Source: Desulfofundulus kuznetsovii DSM 6115 (lineage in GTDB: Bacteria > Bacillota > Desulfotomaculia > Desulfotomaculales > Desulfovirgulaceae). Taken from it: a stretch of 64,000 nucleotides of DNA. Where the stretch lies: assembly GCF_000214705.1 (NCBI RefSeq), contig NC_015573.1, positions 446,501-510,500 of the forward strand, in the 5' to 3' direction. A model generated the notes under the pieces. It made no database searches and was not told where the DNA came from. It saw only the letters and a list, made by a program, of their open reading frames with translations. The translations under genes and the position numbers were made by a program. Of this stretch, positions 12,511-63,812 are shown piece after piece (position 1 is the stretch's first letter; every line of letters begins with the position of its first letter).

Positions 12511-12539
12511 TTGACAAACGGGCGGGTATGTCGTACAAT
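12511..12539 (+). promoter_or_regulatory. Promoter of the T-box leader
   Basis: TTGACA (12511-12516), exactly 17 bases, then TACAAT (12534-12539). This near-consensus vegetative promoter would start transcription at about 12546, directly at the T-box RNA. Confidence 0.85.
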
Positions 12540-12545
12540 TGTAGG

Positions 12546-12870
12546 TGTCCGTTAATAAGGACAAATGACGGTGATGGGGAGCAGTAAGCAGCAGCGGTAT
12601 CTGCAGAGAGCCGCCGGCAGGTGCGAGGCGGTGAACCGGGTTGCTGAACTCGCCCCGGAGTTGCCCGGGGGAAAGCTGAAGTACTCCGGGCCGGCGTGTG
12701 GCCGTTAAAGCACATCGAGAGGGTAAGTATGGGGCTGTGGCGCAGAGGGAGCGCGCTTCCTTGGCATGGAAGAGGCCGCGGGTTCGATTCCCGCCAGCTC
12801 CACCATTTACCAAGTAGGGTGGTACCGCGGGATTAACCTCCCGTCCCTAGAGGGGCGGGAGGTTTTCGTT
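12546..12870 (+). promoter_or_regulatory. Leucine-type T-box leader interrupted by a tRNA gene
   Basis: A T-box senses uncharged tRNA and allows read-through when charging is low. Stem I is recognisable: AGCAGTAAGC (loop-E side of the specifier loop), AGAGAG, the distal GGTGCGA loop closed by GCCGCC/GGCGGT, and GAACTC. Folding places GGGG (12576-12579) against CCCC (12653-12656) and CAGC against GCTG. The codon in the specifier loop is then CUC (12649-12651, Leu), followed by the expected purine. The CCGTTA element is at about 12702. The antiterminator AGGGTGGTACCGCGG starts near 12816. The terminator CCTCCCGTCCC/GGGGCGGGAGG with a T-tract ends near 12866. Uniquely, a complete tRNA-Ala gene (12731-12805) lies between the sensor and expression domains. 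Controlled gene: the acyl-CoA ligase at 12975. Confidence 0.9.
12731..12805 (+). tRNA. tRNA-Ala (anticodon GGC) inside the T-box leader
   Basis: Full cloverleaf of 75 bases. The acceptor stem GGGGCTG/CAGCTCC includes the G3-U70 pair, the main alanine identity element. The D arm is GCGC/GCGC and the anticodon stem CTTCC/GGAAG has loop TTGGCAT (anticodon GGC). The variable loop has five bases, the T arm is GCGGG-TTCGATT-CCCGC, the discriminator is A, and CCA is encoded. All stems pair without mismatch, so it looks functional rather than relic. It has no promoter of its own between the T-box promoter and its 5' end. It must therefore be cut from the leader by RNase P and a 3' nuclease, or remain as part of the leader. 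Confidence 0.93.
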
Positions 12871-12974: not shown

Positions 12975-14639
12975 ATGGACCGGTTTGACCAGATCACTAT
13001 TGGTGACCTGCTCGACAGGACGGCTGCCCTGTATCCAGATAACGAGGCCCTGGTTTATACCGACCGTGGTTTGCGCTATACATACCACCAATTTCGGGAA
13101 CTGTGTAACCTGGCGGCCAGGGGATTGATGGCCCTGGGCATAAAACGGGGTGAGCACATTGCCCTGTGGGCCACCAACGTACCCCAGTGGGTCGTCCTCC
13201 AGTTCGCGTCGGCCAAGATCGGCGCCGTGTTGGTTACGGTAAACACCAATTATAAAGTGCGCGAACTGGAGTACCTGTTGCGGCAGTCCGATGCCACCAC
13301 CCTCTTACTCATCAACGGAACAAAGGAATCCAATTACGTAGAAATGCTCCACGAGCTCTGCCCGGAACTTAACCACTGCCTGCCCGGGCGGCTGAATGCC
13401 AAAAAATTCCCTATGCTGCGCAGTGTGGTTTTTATCGGCGACGAGGAGCACCCGGGGATGTACACCTGGGAACAGGTGCTGGGGATGGCTGAGGCCATTT
13501 CCGAACAGGAGCTGGCAGCCCGCCAGGCCTCCCTTGATCCCGATGACGTGATTAACATGCAGTATACCTCCGGGACCACCGGCTTCCCCAAGGGGGTCAT
13601 GCTGACCCATAGAAATTTAGTCATGAACGCAAAAAGTGTAGCCGAGTGCCTGAATTTCGGCCCCCGGGACCGCCTGTGCATCCCGGTGCCCTTCTTCCAC
13701 TGTTTTGGCTGTGTGCTGGGGACTTTAACCTGTGTGGTCTCGGGAGCCACCATGGTGCCCCTGGAGTCCTTCAATCCGGTGCGGGTTCTGGAAACAGTGG
13801 AGAAGGAAAGGTGCACCGCCCTGCACGGCGTGCCCACCATGTTCATCACCGAGCTGGAGGTGCTGGAAAAACAACCCTTTGACACGTCTTCCCTGCGCAC
13901 CGGCATCATGGCCGGGGCTCCCTGCCCCATTGAAGTGATGAAAGCGGTGGTAGACCGCATGGGGATGAAGGAAATAGTCATTACCTACGGCCAGACCGAA
14001 GCCTCCCCGGGAATTACCATGACCAGGACCGACGACCCCCTGGAGATCAGGGTATCCACCGTGGGCCGGGCCTTGCCGGGCGTGGAGGTGAAGGTGGTGG
14101 ACCCGGCCACCGGGGAAGAAGTACCCCGGGGGTACCAGGGCGAGATTTGCGCCCGGGGATACAACGTCATGAAGGGTTACTATAAAATGCCGGAGGCTAC
14201 GGCCAGCACCATCGACCGGGAAGGCTGGCTGCACACCGGCGACCTGGGGATTATGGATGAACAGGGCTACGTCCGTATTACGGGACGGATCAAGGATATG
14301 ATCATTCGGGGCGGTGAGAACATCTACCCCCGGGAGATTGAGGAATTCCTGCATACCCACCCCAAGATCAAGGATGTGCAGGTGGTGGGGGTGCCCAGCA
14401 GCAAGTACGGCGAAGAGGTAATGGCCTTCATACAATTGAAGGAAGGCTGTACGGCCACGGCTGAGGAAATCAGGGAGTTTTGTAACGGCAAGATTGCCCG
14501 GTATAAAATACCGCAATATATCCAGTTTGTATCGAGCTACCCCACCACGGCCAACGGCAAGGTGCAAAAGTTCAAGCTGCGCGAGCAGGCCATCCGTGAG
14601 TTGAATTTGTTCCAGGCGGCCCGGGTAGAAACAGCCTGA
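12975..14639 (+). CDS. AMP-forming acyl-CoA synthetase (fatty-acid CoA ligase family)
   Basis: Activates a carboxylic acid with ATP and CoA via an acyl-adenylate. The protein has 554 residues from ATG 12975, eight bases after AGGAGG. Adenylation motifs are intact: the P-loop [16 protein letters not shown] (about residues 196-211), [10 protein letters not shown], the GWLHTGDLG motif, and [21 protein letters not shown] with the hinge. The catalytic lysine lies in [10 protein letters not shown] near the C-terminus. The sequence resembles medium- or branched-chain acyl-CoA ligases; the exact acid is unknown. It is the first gene behind the leucine T-box, which suggests a tie to leucine or branched-chain acid metabolism, but this is inference. 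A strong terminator separates it from leuS. Confidence 0.93.
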
Positions 14640-14655: not shown

Positions 14656-14698
14656 CGGGGTGGTGAAGACATCTGTTTGTCCACCACCCCGTTTTCTC
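14656..14698 (+). terminator. Terminator between the acyl-CoA ligase and leuS
   Basis: CGGGGTGGTG pairs with CACCACCCCG, followed by TTTTCTCTTTT. The stem is long and GC-rich, so most T-box transcripts should stop here. Confidence 0.85.
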
Positions 14699-14720
14699 TT
14701 TTCCCCGCGGTTGCCGGTTC

Positions 14721-14750
14721 TTGTCTTAAGTGCAATATTTATGATAAAAT
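14721..14750 (+). promoter_or_regulatory. Possible leuS promoter
   Basis: TTGTCT (14721-14726), 18 bases, then TAAAAT (14745-14750), about 70 bases before the leuS GTG. It would make leuS independent of the upstream T-box. Confidence 0.4.
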
Positions 14751-14820
14751 GACACTTATGATGAAATGCCGTCGAAACAAGGGACAGCAGTTTACGGTAT
14801 ACGGCAAGGGGGATGCTTTG

Positions 14821-17304
14821 GTGAACGAACGCTACGACTTCAAGGAAATTGAAGCGAAGTGGCAGGCCCGCTGGGCCGCAGAAAATTTATATAAGACCCC
14901 GGATTTCTCAGACCGTCCAAAATACTATTGCCTGGAGATGTTTCCCTACCCTTCGGGCAAGCTGCACATGGGCCACGTAAGGAACTACTCCATTGGCGAT
15001 GTGGTGGCCCGCTTTAAAACCATGCAGGGTTACCACGTCCTGCACCCCATGGGGTGGGACGCCTTCGGCCTGCCGGCGGAAAACGCGGCCATCAAGCACG
15101 GCAACATCCATCCCGCCGACTGGACCATGGATAACATCAGGACCATGCGTGCCCAGCTCAAGCAGCTGGGTATCAGCTACGACTGGGACCGGGAAGTGGC
15201 CACCTGCCATCCCGGCTACTACAAGTGGACCCAGTGGCTGTTCCTGCAGCTCTACCACAAAGGGCTGGCCTATAAGAAAAAGGCGGCGGTCAACTGGTGC
15301 CCCTCCTGCGCCACGGTGCTGGCCAACGAGCAGGTCAAGGAGGGTGCCTGCGAGCGCTGCAAGACTCCCGTGGAAAAACGGGAACTGGAACAGTGGTTCT
15401 TTAAAATTACCGCCTACGCCGAGCGCCTGCTCAAGGATCTGGAGTTGCTGAAGGGCTGGCCGGAGAAGGTTAAAATCATGCAGGAAAACTGGATCGGCCG
15501 CAGCGAGGGGGCGGAAATCCGCTTTAAAGTGGCCGGTATGGATGAGGAGATTGTGGTCTTTACCACCCGCCCCGACACGGTGTTCGGGGTGACCTACATG
15601 GTGCTGGCTCCGGAACATCCCCTGGTGGAGAAGCTCGTTGAAGGCAAACCCCAGGCCGGAGCGGTGCGGGACTTCGTGCGGCGGGTGCGCAATTTAAACG
15701 AGATTGCCCGCACGGCCACCGACGTGGAAAAGGAAGGGCTGTTCACCGGGGCCTACTGCATCAACCCCTTGAACGGTGAACGGGTGCCCATACTGGTGGC
15801 CAATTACGTCCTGCTGGAGTATGGTACCGGGGCGGTCATGGGCGTACCGGCCCACGACCAGCGGGACTTTGAATTTGCCCGCAAGTACAACCTGCCCATC
15901 CGGGTGGTCATCCAGCCGCCCGGGGAGGAACTGGACCCACAGACCATGACGGAAGCTTATGCCGGCGACGGGGTGATGGTAAACTCCGGCCAGTTCAACG
16001 GCCTGCCCAAAGACGAGGGGATCCGGGCGGTAATCGCCTACCTGGAGGAAAAGGGCCTGGGCCGGGGCCAGGTGAACTACCGCCTGCGGGACTGGCTGAT
16101 ATCCCGGCAGCGTTACTGGGGCGCCCCCATTCCGATTATATATTGCGATAAGTGCGGCATCGTCCCAGTGCCGGAGAAGGACCTGCCGGTGCTCTTACCC
16201 CGGGACGTGGAGTTTAAACCCACCGGGCAGTCGCCCCTGGCCGACTGTCCGGAGTTCGTCAACACCACCTGCCCCCGGTGCGGCGGGCCGGCCCGGCGGG
16301 AAACGGATACCATGGACACCTTCATGTGTTCCTCCTGGTACTACTACCGCTACACCAGTCCCCGGGACGACAGGCAGCCCTGGGACCGGGCCAGGGTGGA
16401 TTACTGGCTGCCCGTGGACCAGTACATTGGCGGCGTGGAACACGCCATTTTGCACCTGCTGTATTCCCGCTTCTTCACCAAGGTGCTCTACGACCTGGGG
16501 CTGGTGGGCATCCAGGAACCCTTCACCAACTTGTTAACCCAGGGCATGGTGCTGAAAGACGGCGCCAAGATGTCCAAGTCCAGGGGGAACGTGGTCAGCC
16601 CGGAGGAGATTGTGGCCAAATACGGGGCCGATACCGCCCGGCTTTTCATCCTCTTTGCCGCACCCCCCGAGCGGGATCTGGAATGGAGCGACCAGGGGGT
16701 GGAGGGCTGCTACCGGTTCCTCAACCGGGTCTGGCGCCTGGTCGCCTCCGTGGCCGGCAGGCTGCTGGAAGCACCGCCAAAACCGGCAGGCAAGCTGGTG
16801 GGGGTCAACCGGCAAATGCACCGCCTGACCCACCTGACCATTAAAAAGGTGACCGAGGATATCGGCAACCGGTTTAACTTCAACACCGCCGTCAGCGCCA
16901 TCATGGAGCTGGTGAACGCCCTGTACCAGTACAAAGAGGTGCCGGAAACCGACCGGGACCCGGCGGTTTTGCGGGAAGGGATCGAGCACCTGCTCATTCT
17001 GCTGGCTCCCTTTGCCCCTCATATAACCGAGGAGCTGTGGGAGGCCACCGGCCACCGGGAGAGCATCCACAGGCAGCCCTGGCCCGCCTATGACCCCGAG
17101 GCCATTGTGGAAGACGAGATTACCATTGTGGTGCAGATCAACGGCCGGGTGCGGGAGCGGGTGCTGGTGCCGGCGGACATCACCCCGGAACAAATGAAAG
17201 AGGTGGTCCTGGCCCAGCCCCGGGTGCAGAAACTGGTGGAGGGAAAGCAAATAGTGAAGGTCATCCCCGTACCGGGGAAACTGGTGAACATCGTGGTGAA
17301 GTAA
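14821..17304 (+). CDS. leuS: Leucyl-tRNA synthetase
   Basis: Class I synthetase that charges tRNA-Leu. From GTG 14821 (AAGGGGG site) the protein has 827 residues, normal for bacteria. The ATP-binding HMGH is at 49-52 within [17 protein letters not shown], and KMSKS is at 583-587. A zinc-knuckle-like CPSCATVL ... CERC segment lies in the first third, and the CP1 editing domain contains [19 protein letters not shown] and [10 protein letters not shown]. Anticodon-binding and C-terminal domains complete it. The frame extends upstream to 14677, but that part overlaps the terminator and is not family-like. No T-box lies directly before it; the leucine T-box is one gene upstream. Confidence 0.97.
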
Positions 17305-38144: not shown

Positions 38145-40181
38145 GTTTCCAGCCTACCTATGAGGGATTGAAACGCCTGCCGGACAACGTTGTACCGTAC
38201 GAAGTCCAACGTTTCCAGCCTACCTATGAGGGATTGAAACTGCCGTAGGGGGGGTTGGTAGTGGTGGTGTCTTCCTTGGTTTCCAGCCTACCTATGAGGG
38301 ATTGAAACACCAGGCCAGGGGCTACTGCACCGCCAAGGGCAAGGGCGTTTCCAGCCTACCTATGAGGGATTGAAACAAGGTCAAACGGGGGAGTTTTTCT
38401 CTGGCCCTCGCTGGTTTCCAGCCTACCTATGAGGGATTGAAACACTGCACCGGCTGGGAAGCCGGGATTGTGGTGGAGAGTTTCCAGCCTACCTATGAGG
38501 GATTGAAACCTGGGTGGTACTACGGTAGTGAAAGGGTTCCGGACAGTTTCCAGCCTACCTATGAGGGATTGAAACTGAGGATGGAACCGATCTCCTTGGT
38601 GTGGCCGACGGTTTCCAGCCTACCTATGAGGGATTGAAACAAGCATCGGCTGTAAGAAGCACGATAACCCTTACAAAGGTTTCCAGCCTACCTATGAGGG
38701 ATTGAAACTCGATAACCATGCGCCCTATGCCGTGTTCCCGGAGTTTGTTTCCAGCCTACCTATGAGGGATTGAAACAGCGTGAAATTATGGAGATAACCG
38801 GTAAGTTAGTTGTTTCCAGCCTACCTATGAGGGATTGAAACTAAAACACGCCGCTATCTCCGATACCCGGAAACTCAAGTTTCCAGCCTACCTATGAGGG
38901 ATTGAAACCCAAACCGCCGGCCACGAATAACGGGTCCAGGGCCGGTTTCCAGCCTACCTATGAGGGATTGAAACTTCCAGCTCGGCAACTTGTCCAGTAG
39001 GTTCATTCTTCCCGTTTCCAGCCTACCTATGAGGGATTGAAACTATGCTGAAGTAGTGGTTCCGTCACCAAGTTCACCATATAGGTTTCCAGCCTACCTA
39101 TGAGGGATTGAAACAAGTAGGCCGCCCACCGACGTTTCTTCCTCATCTCAGGTTTCCAGCCTACCTATGAGGGATTGAAACCCAGCTCCAGCGACCGCCA
39201 GATTCCGGTCGTGGCTTCGTTTCCAGCCTACCTATGAGGGATTGAAACCGACGCAAAATGTCTGGAGGAATGTAAACATCCTCCGTTTCCAGCCTACCTA
39301 TGAGGGATTGAAACATGGCTTTCGGCCCCTGCAGTTCGGGCAGCCACTCTTCGGTTTCCAGCCTACCTATGAGGGATTGAAACCCCTGAGCCCAGTGGCC
39401 TATGATGTCCTTGAACATGGGTTTCCAGCCTACCTATGAGGGATTGAAACCCGATGCCATCAGGGACAGCTTGAAAGCCCTGGGTGAGGTTTCCAGCCTA
39501 CCTATGAGGGATTGAAACACGGTGGCCGGTTTAAGGCCGCGCATCGCCAGCATGGTTTCCAGCCTACCTATGAGGGATTGAAACTCACCACGTCCAGGGT
39601 AGGACTAACTCCCGCTACCGCCGGTTTCCAGCCTACCTATGAGGGATTGAAACTCAGTTTGGCATCGTCCTCCTTGGCCAGGTAAAACACGGTTTCCAGC
39701 CTACCTATGAGGGATTGAAACCACCGTAGCAACACCCCCCGGGCACTGTTACGCAAGGTTTCCAGCCTACCTATGAGGGATTGAAACGACGCCCGTGTTT
39801 TCAAGTCCGGCAGGGGCACAATTGGTTTCCAGCCTACCTATGAGGGATTGAAACCCGTCAAAACAGTTACATTTTACACATTGGAAAAAAGTTTCCAGCC
39901 TACCTATGAGGGATTGAAACATGCCAGCTGCGCCCCCTGCTTACCCTGGGCTTTCGGTTTCCAGCCTACCTATGAGGGATTGAAACTAATAAATGATGTA
40001 ATCCAGCTCCTGCCACGTAAGTTTCCAGCCTACCTATGAGGGATTGAAACGCTTGACCCTTTCTTTTTCATCCATGTGATAAAACGTTTCCAGCCTACCT
40101 ATGAGGGATTGAAACATTGATTTGCTGCGTTTCTGGGGCATACCGCCGGCAGTTTCCAGCCTACCTATGAGGGATTGAAAC
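38145..40181 (+). CRISPR. CRISPR array, leader-proximal block: 31 repeats, 30 spacers
   Basis: Thirty-one 30-base repeats beginning GTTTCCAGCC and ending GAGGGATTGAAAC, first at 38145-38174, last at 40152-40181. By my reading all copies are identical. Spacers are 34-41 bases, mostly 36-38, and all differ. The repeat end ATTGAAAC is the form used by type I-B and many type III systems; cutting by Cas6 would leave an eight-base 5' handle. Open frames seen across this block (repeated FQPTYEGLK) are artefacts of the repeat. Confidence 0.99.
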
Positions 40182-42223: not shown

Positions 42224-42503
42224 GTTTCCAGCCTACCTATGAGGGATTGAACCCCCCCCAGCTCGCCGGCACGCACGAAGATAATCACGGCGTTTCCAGC
42301 CTACCTATGAGGGATTGAAACTTTACGGCCTCGGCAAAGATCCGCAACTCGATCTCGTATCCGTTTCCAGCCTACCTATGAGGGATTGAAACCCGCCAGG
42401 AAACCCTCCTGCAATGGCTCTTCCCTGGTTTCCAGCCTACCTATGAGGGATTGAAACACTGGCTATGCGTTGCTTATATGTTTGTCGTTATCCGTTTCCA
42501 GCC
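42224..42503 (+). CRISPR. CRISPR array, distal block: four repeats plus a split one
   Basis: Repeats at 42224-42253 (one change near its 3' end: GAACC for GAAAC), 42292-42321, 42363-42392 and 42428-42457. A further copy is cut after ten bases at 42494-42503. Spacers are 38, 41, 35 and 36 bases. Same sequence and orientation as the main block, so this is the old end of one array. It was separated by the transposase insertion, and its last repeat was broken by the IS21-like element. Confidence 0.95.
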
Positions 42504-63729: not shown

Positions 63730-63812
63730 GTCGGAGTGGCGGAACTGGCAGACGCGCACGTTTGAGGGGCGTGTGGGAAACCGTGCGGGTTCGAGTCCCG
63801 CCTCCGACACCA
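63730..63812 (+). tRNA. tRNA-Leu (anticodon GAG)
   Basis: 83 bases. Acceptor stem GTCGGAG/CTCCGAC, D arm with GG in the loop, anticodon stem CACGT/GCGTG with loop TTGAGGG (anticodon GAG), a long variable arm as in class II tRNAs, T arm GCGGG-TTCGAGT-CCCGC, discriminator A and an encoded CCA. It reads CUC and CUU. Its anticodon is complementary to the specifier CUC of the T-box at 12546, so it is a candidate effector of that switch. Confidence 0.93.

Follow-up and report, generated by a model that had tools for sequence, protein, structure and literature searches.

A tRNA-Ala(GGC) gene in the Stem III loop of a leucine T-box leader of Desulfofundulus kuznetsovii

In a stretch of 64,000 nucleotides of the Desulfofundulus kuznetsovii DSM 6115 genome (referred to here as the window), a complete tRNA-Ala(GGC) gene was found to form the apical loop of Stem III in the T-box leader of leuS. 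By ARAGORN and an antiterminator pattern applied to all fetched loci, at least 156 distinct nests of a tRNA in a T-box were identified, all of them with tRNA-Ala(GGC). Judged from its sequence, the leader is likely to be a dual-use RNA, serving both as a leucine T-box for acs-leuS and as the obligatory precursor of tRNA-Ala(GGC).

Anatomy of the leader and its nested tRNA

The T-box motifs reported in the earlier note were read directly (12583-12707), at or very near the places it had named. The antiterminator and terminator hairpin, the intact tRNA-Ala(GGC) with G3:U70 and CCA, and the single near-consensus promoter with one predicted transcript were likewise recovered. The features are given below by their coordinates in the window.

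12511-12539, + strand: sigma-70 type promoter, TTGACA-17-TACAAT, 11/12 consensus matches (shuffle mean 0.3)
12562-12660, + strand: T-box Stem I (motif reading and Rfam)
12583-12587, + strand: loop E of Stem I, AGTAA (read directly)
12605-12610, + strand: AGAGAG of Stem I (read directly)
12620-12626, + strand: GGTGCGA of Stem I (read directly)
12646-12651, + strand: specifier loop GAA-CTC (read directly), specifier CTC (Leu) at 12649-12651
12661-12707, + strand: Stem II and Stem IIA/B, S-turn AGTA at 12680-12683 (motif reading and Rfam)
12702-12707, + strand: F-box CCGTTA in Stem IIA/B (read directly)
12717-12721, + strand: purine string GAGAG (RRRxG) of Stem III (motif reading, flank pairing, folding)
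12722-12727, + strand: 5' strand of Stem III, GGTAAG, pairing with 12806-12811
12731-12805, + strand: complete tRNA-Ala(GGC) inside the Stem III loop (ARAGORN, RF00005)
12806-12811, + strand: 3' strand of Stem III, TTTACC, followed by the conserved AA at 12812-12813
12816-12830, + strand: T-box antiterminator AGGGTGGTACCGCGG (motif reading and Rfam)
12820-12823, + strand: tRNA-NCCA binding bulge TGGT in the antiterminator
12835-12864, + strand: intrinsic terminator hairpin with T-rich tail (terminator scan)
12975-14639, + strand: acs, AMP-dependent acyl-CoA synthetase-like, first gene after the T-box (name inferred from sequence)
14677-17304, + strand: leuS, leucyl-tRNA synthetase, as open reading frame; the start is more likely near 14821

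All sequence features tested identify the leader as a T-box. The covariance-model search, proposed earlier as a check, returned a T-box around the tRNA: the RF00230 match at 12562-12851 reached 123.4 bits (gathering score 93) and covered the whole model (positions 1-219), with the tRNA aligned as a 76-nt insert at the Stem III position. The promoter at 12511-12539 was the only one detected on the forward strand in the promoter scan of the leader. No promoter or terminator was found between sensor and antiterminator in the leader scan, the sole terminator being that at 12835-12864, and the approximately 23 nt from the F-box to the tRNA consist mostly of RRRxG and a Stem III strand, so that no space is left for a second promoter. 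Among the T-boxes of the D. kuznetsovii genome that were scanned, a tRNA occurred inside the leuS leader only. Another of its T-boxes adjoins a Guanidine-I riboswitch (L006, 1312-1425).

The specifier CUC agrees with the regulated gene leuS, and CTC occurred in all 130 nests whose specifier region fits the search pattern. GAA directly abuts CTC in 117 nests and is separated from it as GAA-N-CTC in 13, the Rfam consensus having one base between. The cognate tRNA-Leu(GAG) is encoded at 63730-63812 of the same window, which also holds two CRISPR arrays with a DR2-type repeat (38145-40181 and 42292-42457). Wherever enough sequence was available, nests were followed by leuS or sometimes acs-leuS; the exceptions were stretches reaching only acs or ending early. 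The T-box is followed by acs in many members of families f1, f4, f7, f9, f16, and f18 and directly by leuS in others. An acyl-CoA ligase may thus be under leucine T-box control.

The earlier note placed the tRNA between sensor and antiterminator. This holds with one refinement, as the tRNA lies within Stem III. The T-box discriminator motif has the form RRRxG-Stem III-AA (PMC7583486), and the order in the window is GAGAG-GGUAAG-UAU-[tRNA]-UUUACC-AA. The tRNA is the apical loop of Stem III in the discriminator rather than a free linker. Stem III is tight around it, with 3 nt on the 5' side and 0 nt past the CCA; the median nest has 6 free nt per side. In 107 representative nests, true Stem III flanks formed on average 5.9 contiguous pairs versus 3.7 for swapped flanks (z of 18.3, 1000 permutations), in a test that is conservative because the swapped controls are related sequences. 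Every Stem III position showed several standard pair types across nests, RRRxG preceded the stem in 74 of 90, and AA followed it in 99 of 107. In the minimum free energy fold of the window leader the cloverleaf formed with an extended Stem III beneath it and the acceptor stem stayed paired, while this single-sequence folding recovered the T-box core only partly.

Distribution and conservation of the nest

The scan of 84,980 species genomes yielded at least 120 stretches, with tRNA-Ala(GGC) in approximately 107; among the matches listed, none of the T-boxes enclosed a tRNA of another isotype. The 157th match of the ARAGORN and antiterminator search, a tRNA-Asp at L189, was considered as a second kind of nest and rejected as it has no T-box around it. 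Matches of nested tRNAs to the tmRNA model RF00023 were put down to the relaxed thresholds used, which let Ala-type acceptor arms through. A stricter anticodon pattern lost many nested genes.

Intact nests were present in 47 of 113 genomes of the order, and the nest pattern occurred in 67 of 398 genomes of the phylum sample, of which two (G000 and G239) each have one extra match unrelated to tRNA. The reversed pattern, used as a control, gave 0 matches in the same 398 genomes, which excludes a chance origin of the pattern. In the Chloroflexota-side sample the nest pattern occurred in 16 of 301 genomes. Some Chloroflexota records (L139, L178, L179, and L188) carry a tRNA-Ala(CGC) approximately 190-240 nt upstream of the nested tRNA.

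The nest records were labelled Bacillota, Chloroflexota, Armatimonadota, Actinomycetota, Coprothermobacterota, and Caldisericota. The Rfam T-box match spans the tRNA in records of Caldisericota, Coprothermobacterota, Armatimonadota, Actinomycetota, and Chloroflexota as well as in the cultured Orenia metallireducens. Two candidates for further phyla were rejected: the "Proteobacteria" record L130 groups with the phylum of the Chloroflexota genomes, and the "Desulfovibrio" MAG L206 has a LeuRS that falls among those of Bacillota. The tree built from the LeuRS of nest carriers has deep branches and clusters by phylum, with 11 label changes compared to a minimum of 7 and a shuffled mean of 32. An old arrangement fits this tree better than a recent spread would; some transfer and mislabelling of MAGs are possible.

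The nested tRNA has the sequence properties of a working gene. In the window, the RF00005 match (12731-12802, 68.2 bits) has zero broken pairs marked, G3:U70 is present, A73 is at 12802, and the CCA is encoded at 12803-12805. G3:U70, all seven acceptor pairs, and A73 were kept in 155 of the 156 nests listed; the deviation in the remaining one, L171, seems to stem from a predicted 5' end that is off by one base. Position -1 was U in 118 of 155 nests. The CCA was part of the gene in 127 of the 156 and missing from 29, mostly in Chloroflexota-type records, and its state agreed with that of neighbouring tRNAs in 11 of 14 cases. Across 20 nests of the order, the identity of the tRNA was 97.6% compared to 54-72% for the flanking parts.

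As searched with RF00005 and ARAGORN on fetched genome stretches, D. kuznetsovii has 42 tRNAs, among which the nested gene is the only GGC gene detected; Ala-TGC and Ile-GAT were also not seen among the 42 and may sit in missed stretches. The nested gene was likewise the only GGC gene detected in all 13 genomes checked outside the order, where the other Ala tRNAs were CGC or TGC. Taken together, the sequence data indicate that the nested tRNA-Ala(GGC) is a working gene, functional-looking and probably essential.

Probable dual use, separated modules and RNase P

From the anatomy, conservation, covariation, copy number, and decay states of the nest, we infer a course of transcription, tRNA processing, and evolutionary events as follows. 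One promoter would give a single RNA that serves as switch and as tRNA precursor. The specifier CUC would be read by tRNA-Leu(GAG), placing acs-leuS under transcriptional control. As in other T-boxes, uncharged tRNA-Leu would first engage Stems I and II, followed by the antiterminator through its UGGU bulge. Stem III, flanked by RRRxG and AA, would form all the same and be capped by the folded tRNA-Ala. The RNA would contain tRNA-Ala whether transcription terminates or reads through, and RNase P with 3' processing would free it from either product. Since the tRNA lies upstream of the terminator, its supply should be independent of leucine status. The arrangement appears to be old and held by the need for both parts, because leuS needs the T-box and the tRNA has no other GGC gene to replace it. 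Where a second tRNA-Ala(GGC) gene arose elsewhere, the nested copy could decay; where leuS lost its T-box, the tRNA would remain.

Eight T-boxes from two families hold degenerate tRNA remnants and score 106-129 bits. Their Stem III is mostly kept, with the strands GGTAAAGA/TCTTTACC in L263 and GGCAAAG/CTTTGCC in L276, and the nested tRNAs of L270 (G020) and L271 (G018) are cut down to the acceptor and D arm. By a tRNA-Ala(GGC) covariance model, intact unlinked tRNA-Ala(GGC) genes were found in five of the eight genomes (G086, G088, G096, G097, and G098). BLAST with the nested tRNA had found almost none of them because the replacement genes are of a different sequence type. The genome of G087 is only 74% complete. 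In the near-complete G018 and G020 no other tRNA-Ala(GGC) was found with the covariance model, which does not fit an order in which replacement comes first, unless sequence is missing from the assemblies or GCC is decoded in another way. With both an intact nest and an unlinked copy, G094 is a plausible intermediate. In family f9, ordinary short Stem III loops occur together with an unlinked GGC gene. Families f2, f8, f11, f14, and f15 have lost their T-box and still carry tRNA-Ala(GGC) ahead of leuS, with a promoter-like sequence directly upstream and a terminator-like hairpin; in several cases this hairpin resembles the T-box terminator arm (CCTCTCGTCC) and may be a relic of the T-box.

The coupling of tRNA and switch put forward in the earlier note is not obligatory in view of these states: the T-box persists around a decayed tRNA in eight genomes, the tRNA persists with no T-box in other families, and the two thus separate in evolution. 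The proposal that each RNA serves either as a tRNA source or as a switch is not supported in this form, as terminated and read-through RNAs would both hold the tRNA upstream of the terminator, and the switch would be decided within approximately 65 nt of the completion of the tRNA. Such a choice is possible, but it is not needed to explain the conservation, since each module is kept without the other. Separation of the halves by tRNA maturation holds in principle, as the cut would fall between them; Stem III could keep them paired, in which case cleavage need not affect the switch.

A kinetic connection is conceivable, in which RNase P cleavage competes with the T-box decision, tRNA maturation or the RNase P level sets leuS expression, and Stem III acts as a clamp that delays the cut or holds the cut halves. 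We regard it as possible, with a tentative leaning against it. The predicted cut between sensor and antiterminator, the tight Stem III of the window, and the covariation of this helix are consistent with it, and pairing of a leader with the 3'RCCA is known to inhibit a step of RNase P action (PMC9433436). However, every T-box needs Stem III, so its covariation says nothing of a clamp function, and the 6 free nt per side in the median nest and the persistence of each module alone argue against it. A further point against it is that only approximately 65 nt separate the end of the tRNA from that of the terminator; were RNase P fast compared to the transcription of this stretch, its cut could influence the switch. 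A timed device, in which the Stem III clamp delays RNase P until tRNA-Leu has been read and excision of the tRNA leaves a base-paired nicked riboswitch, appears doubtful. If it existed, RNase P activity and tRNA-Ala maturation would tune the expression of leucyl-tRNA synthetase.

It is improbable that the ACCA end of the nested tRNA-Ala biases the switch in cis by pairing with the UGGU bulge. The two are approximately 15 nt apart, but CCA is not encoded in 29 of the 156 nests listed, the acceptor stem remains formed in the predicted fold, and the anticodon GGC is unmatched to the specifier CUC. Very improbable is the alternative raised in the earlier note, that the tRNA is retained for its fold, as a spacer or scaffold in the T-box, and not as a tRNA. 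The insert does lie in the discriminator helix and single-strand folding puts the tRNA on Stem III, yet its 97.6% identity beside diverged flanks, the retained G3:U70 and other identity elements, and its status as sole detected GGC gene speak against this reading, and T-boxes with decayed or missing inserts still score high. An assembly join or a recent accidental insertion in one strain, suspected should close relatives lack the tRNA, can be practically dismissed, as the source genome is a single contig of 3.60 Mb and the nest is carried by 47 of 113 genomes of the order and approximately 100 other loci, isolates included.

Comparison with known systems

A tRNA-sensing riboswitch can thus house a functional-looking tRNA gene in its own helix, conserved over several phyla, which poses the question of how a single RNA can be a substrate of RNase P and also make the decision of a T-box. 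The states of decay, with the tRNA lost, the T-box lost, or both kept beside a second gene, provide a natural experiment on the separation of overlapping RNA functions. For annotation the nest is a warning, as T-box and tRNA pipelines each capture half of the element. To our knowledge, no riboswitch has been described that holds a functional tRNA gene in one of its helices; no earlier description of the nested tRNA was found in the literature searched, the coverage of which is partial, so that a prior mention is possible.

The leader resembles a leuS-class transcriptional T-box (RF00230) in all its domains, the Leu specifier, RRRxG-Stem III-AA, antiterminator, and terminator. It differs in the loop of Stem III, which ordinarily comprises a few nucleotides and here a complete tRNA gene. 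Dicistronic tRNA-mRNA transcripts such as metY-nusA and tRNA-tufB, from which RNase P cuts out the tRNA, share the co-transcription of tRNA and mRNA, but there the tRNA lies beside rather than within a folded regulator. The thrS T-box leader of Bacillus subtilis also has a cleavage site inside the leader, as predicted here, but is cut by general RNases with no tRNA released. Translational T-boxes carry lineage-specific insertions of unknown function in Stem III and helix A2 (PMC7583486). As in these, the discriminator accommodates extra sequence, whereas the insert described here looks like a functional tRNA gene, one that serves a different amino acid.
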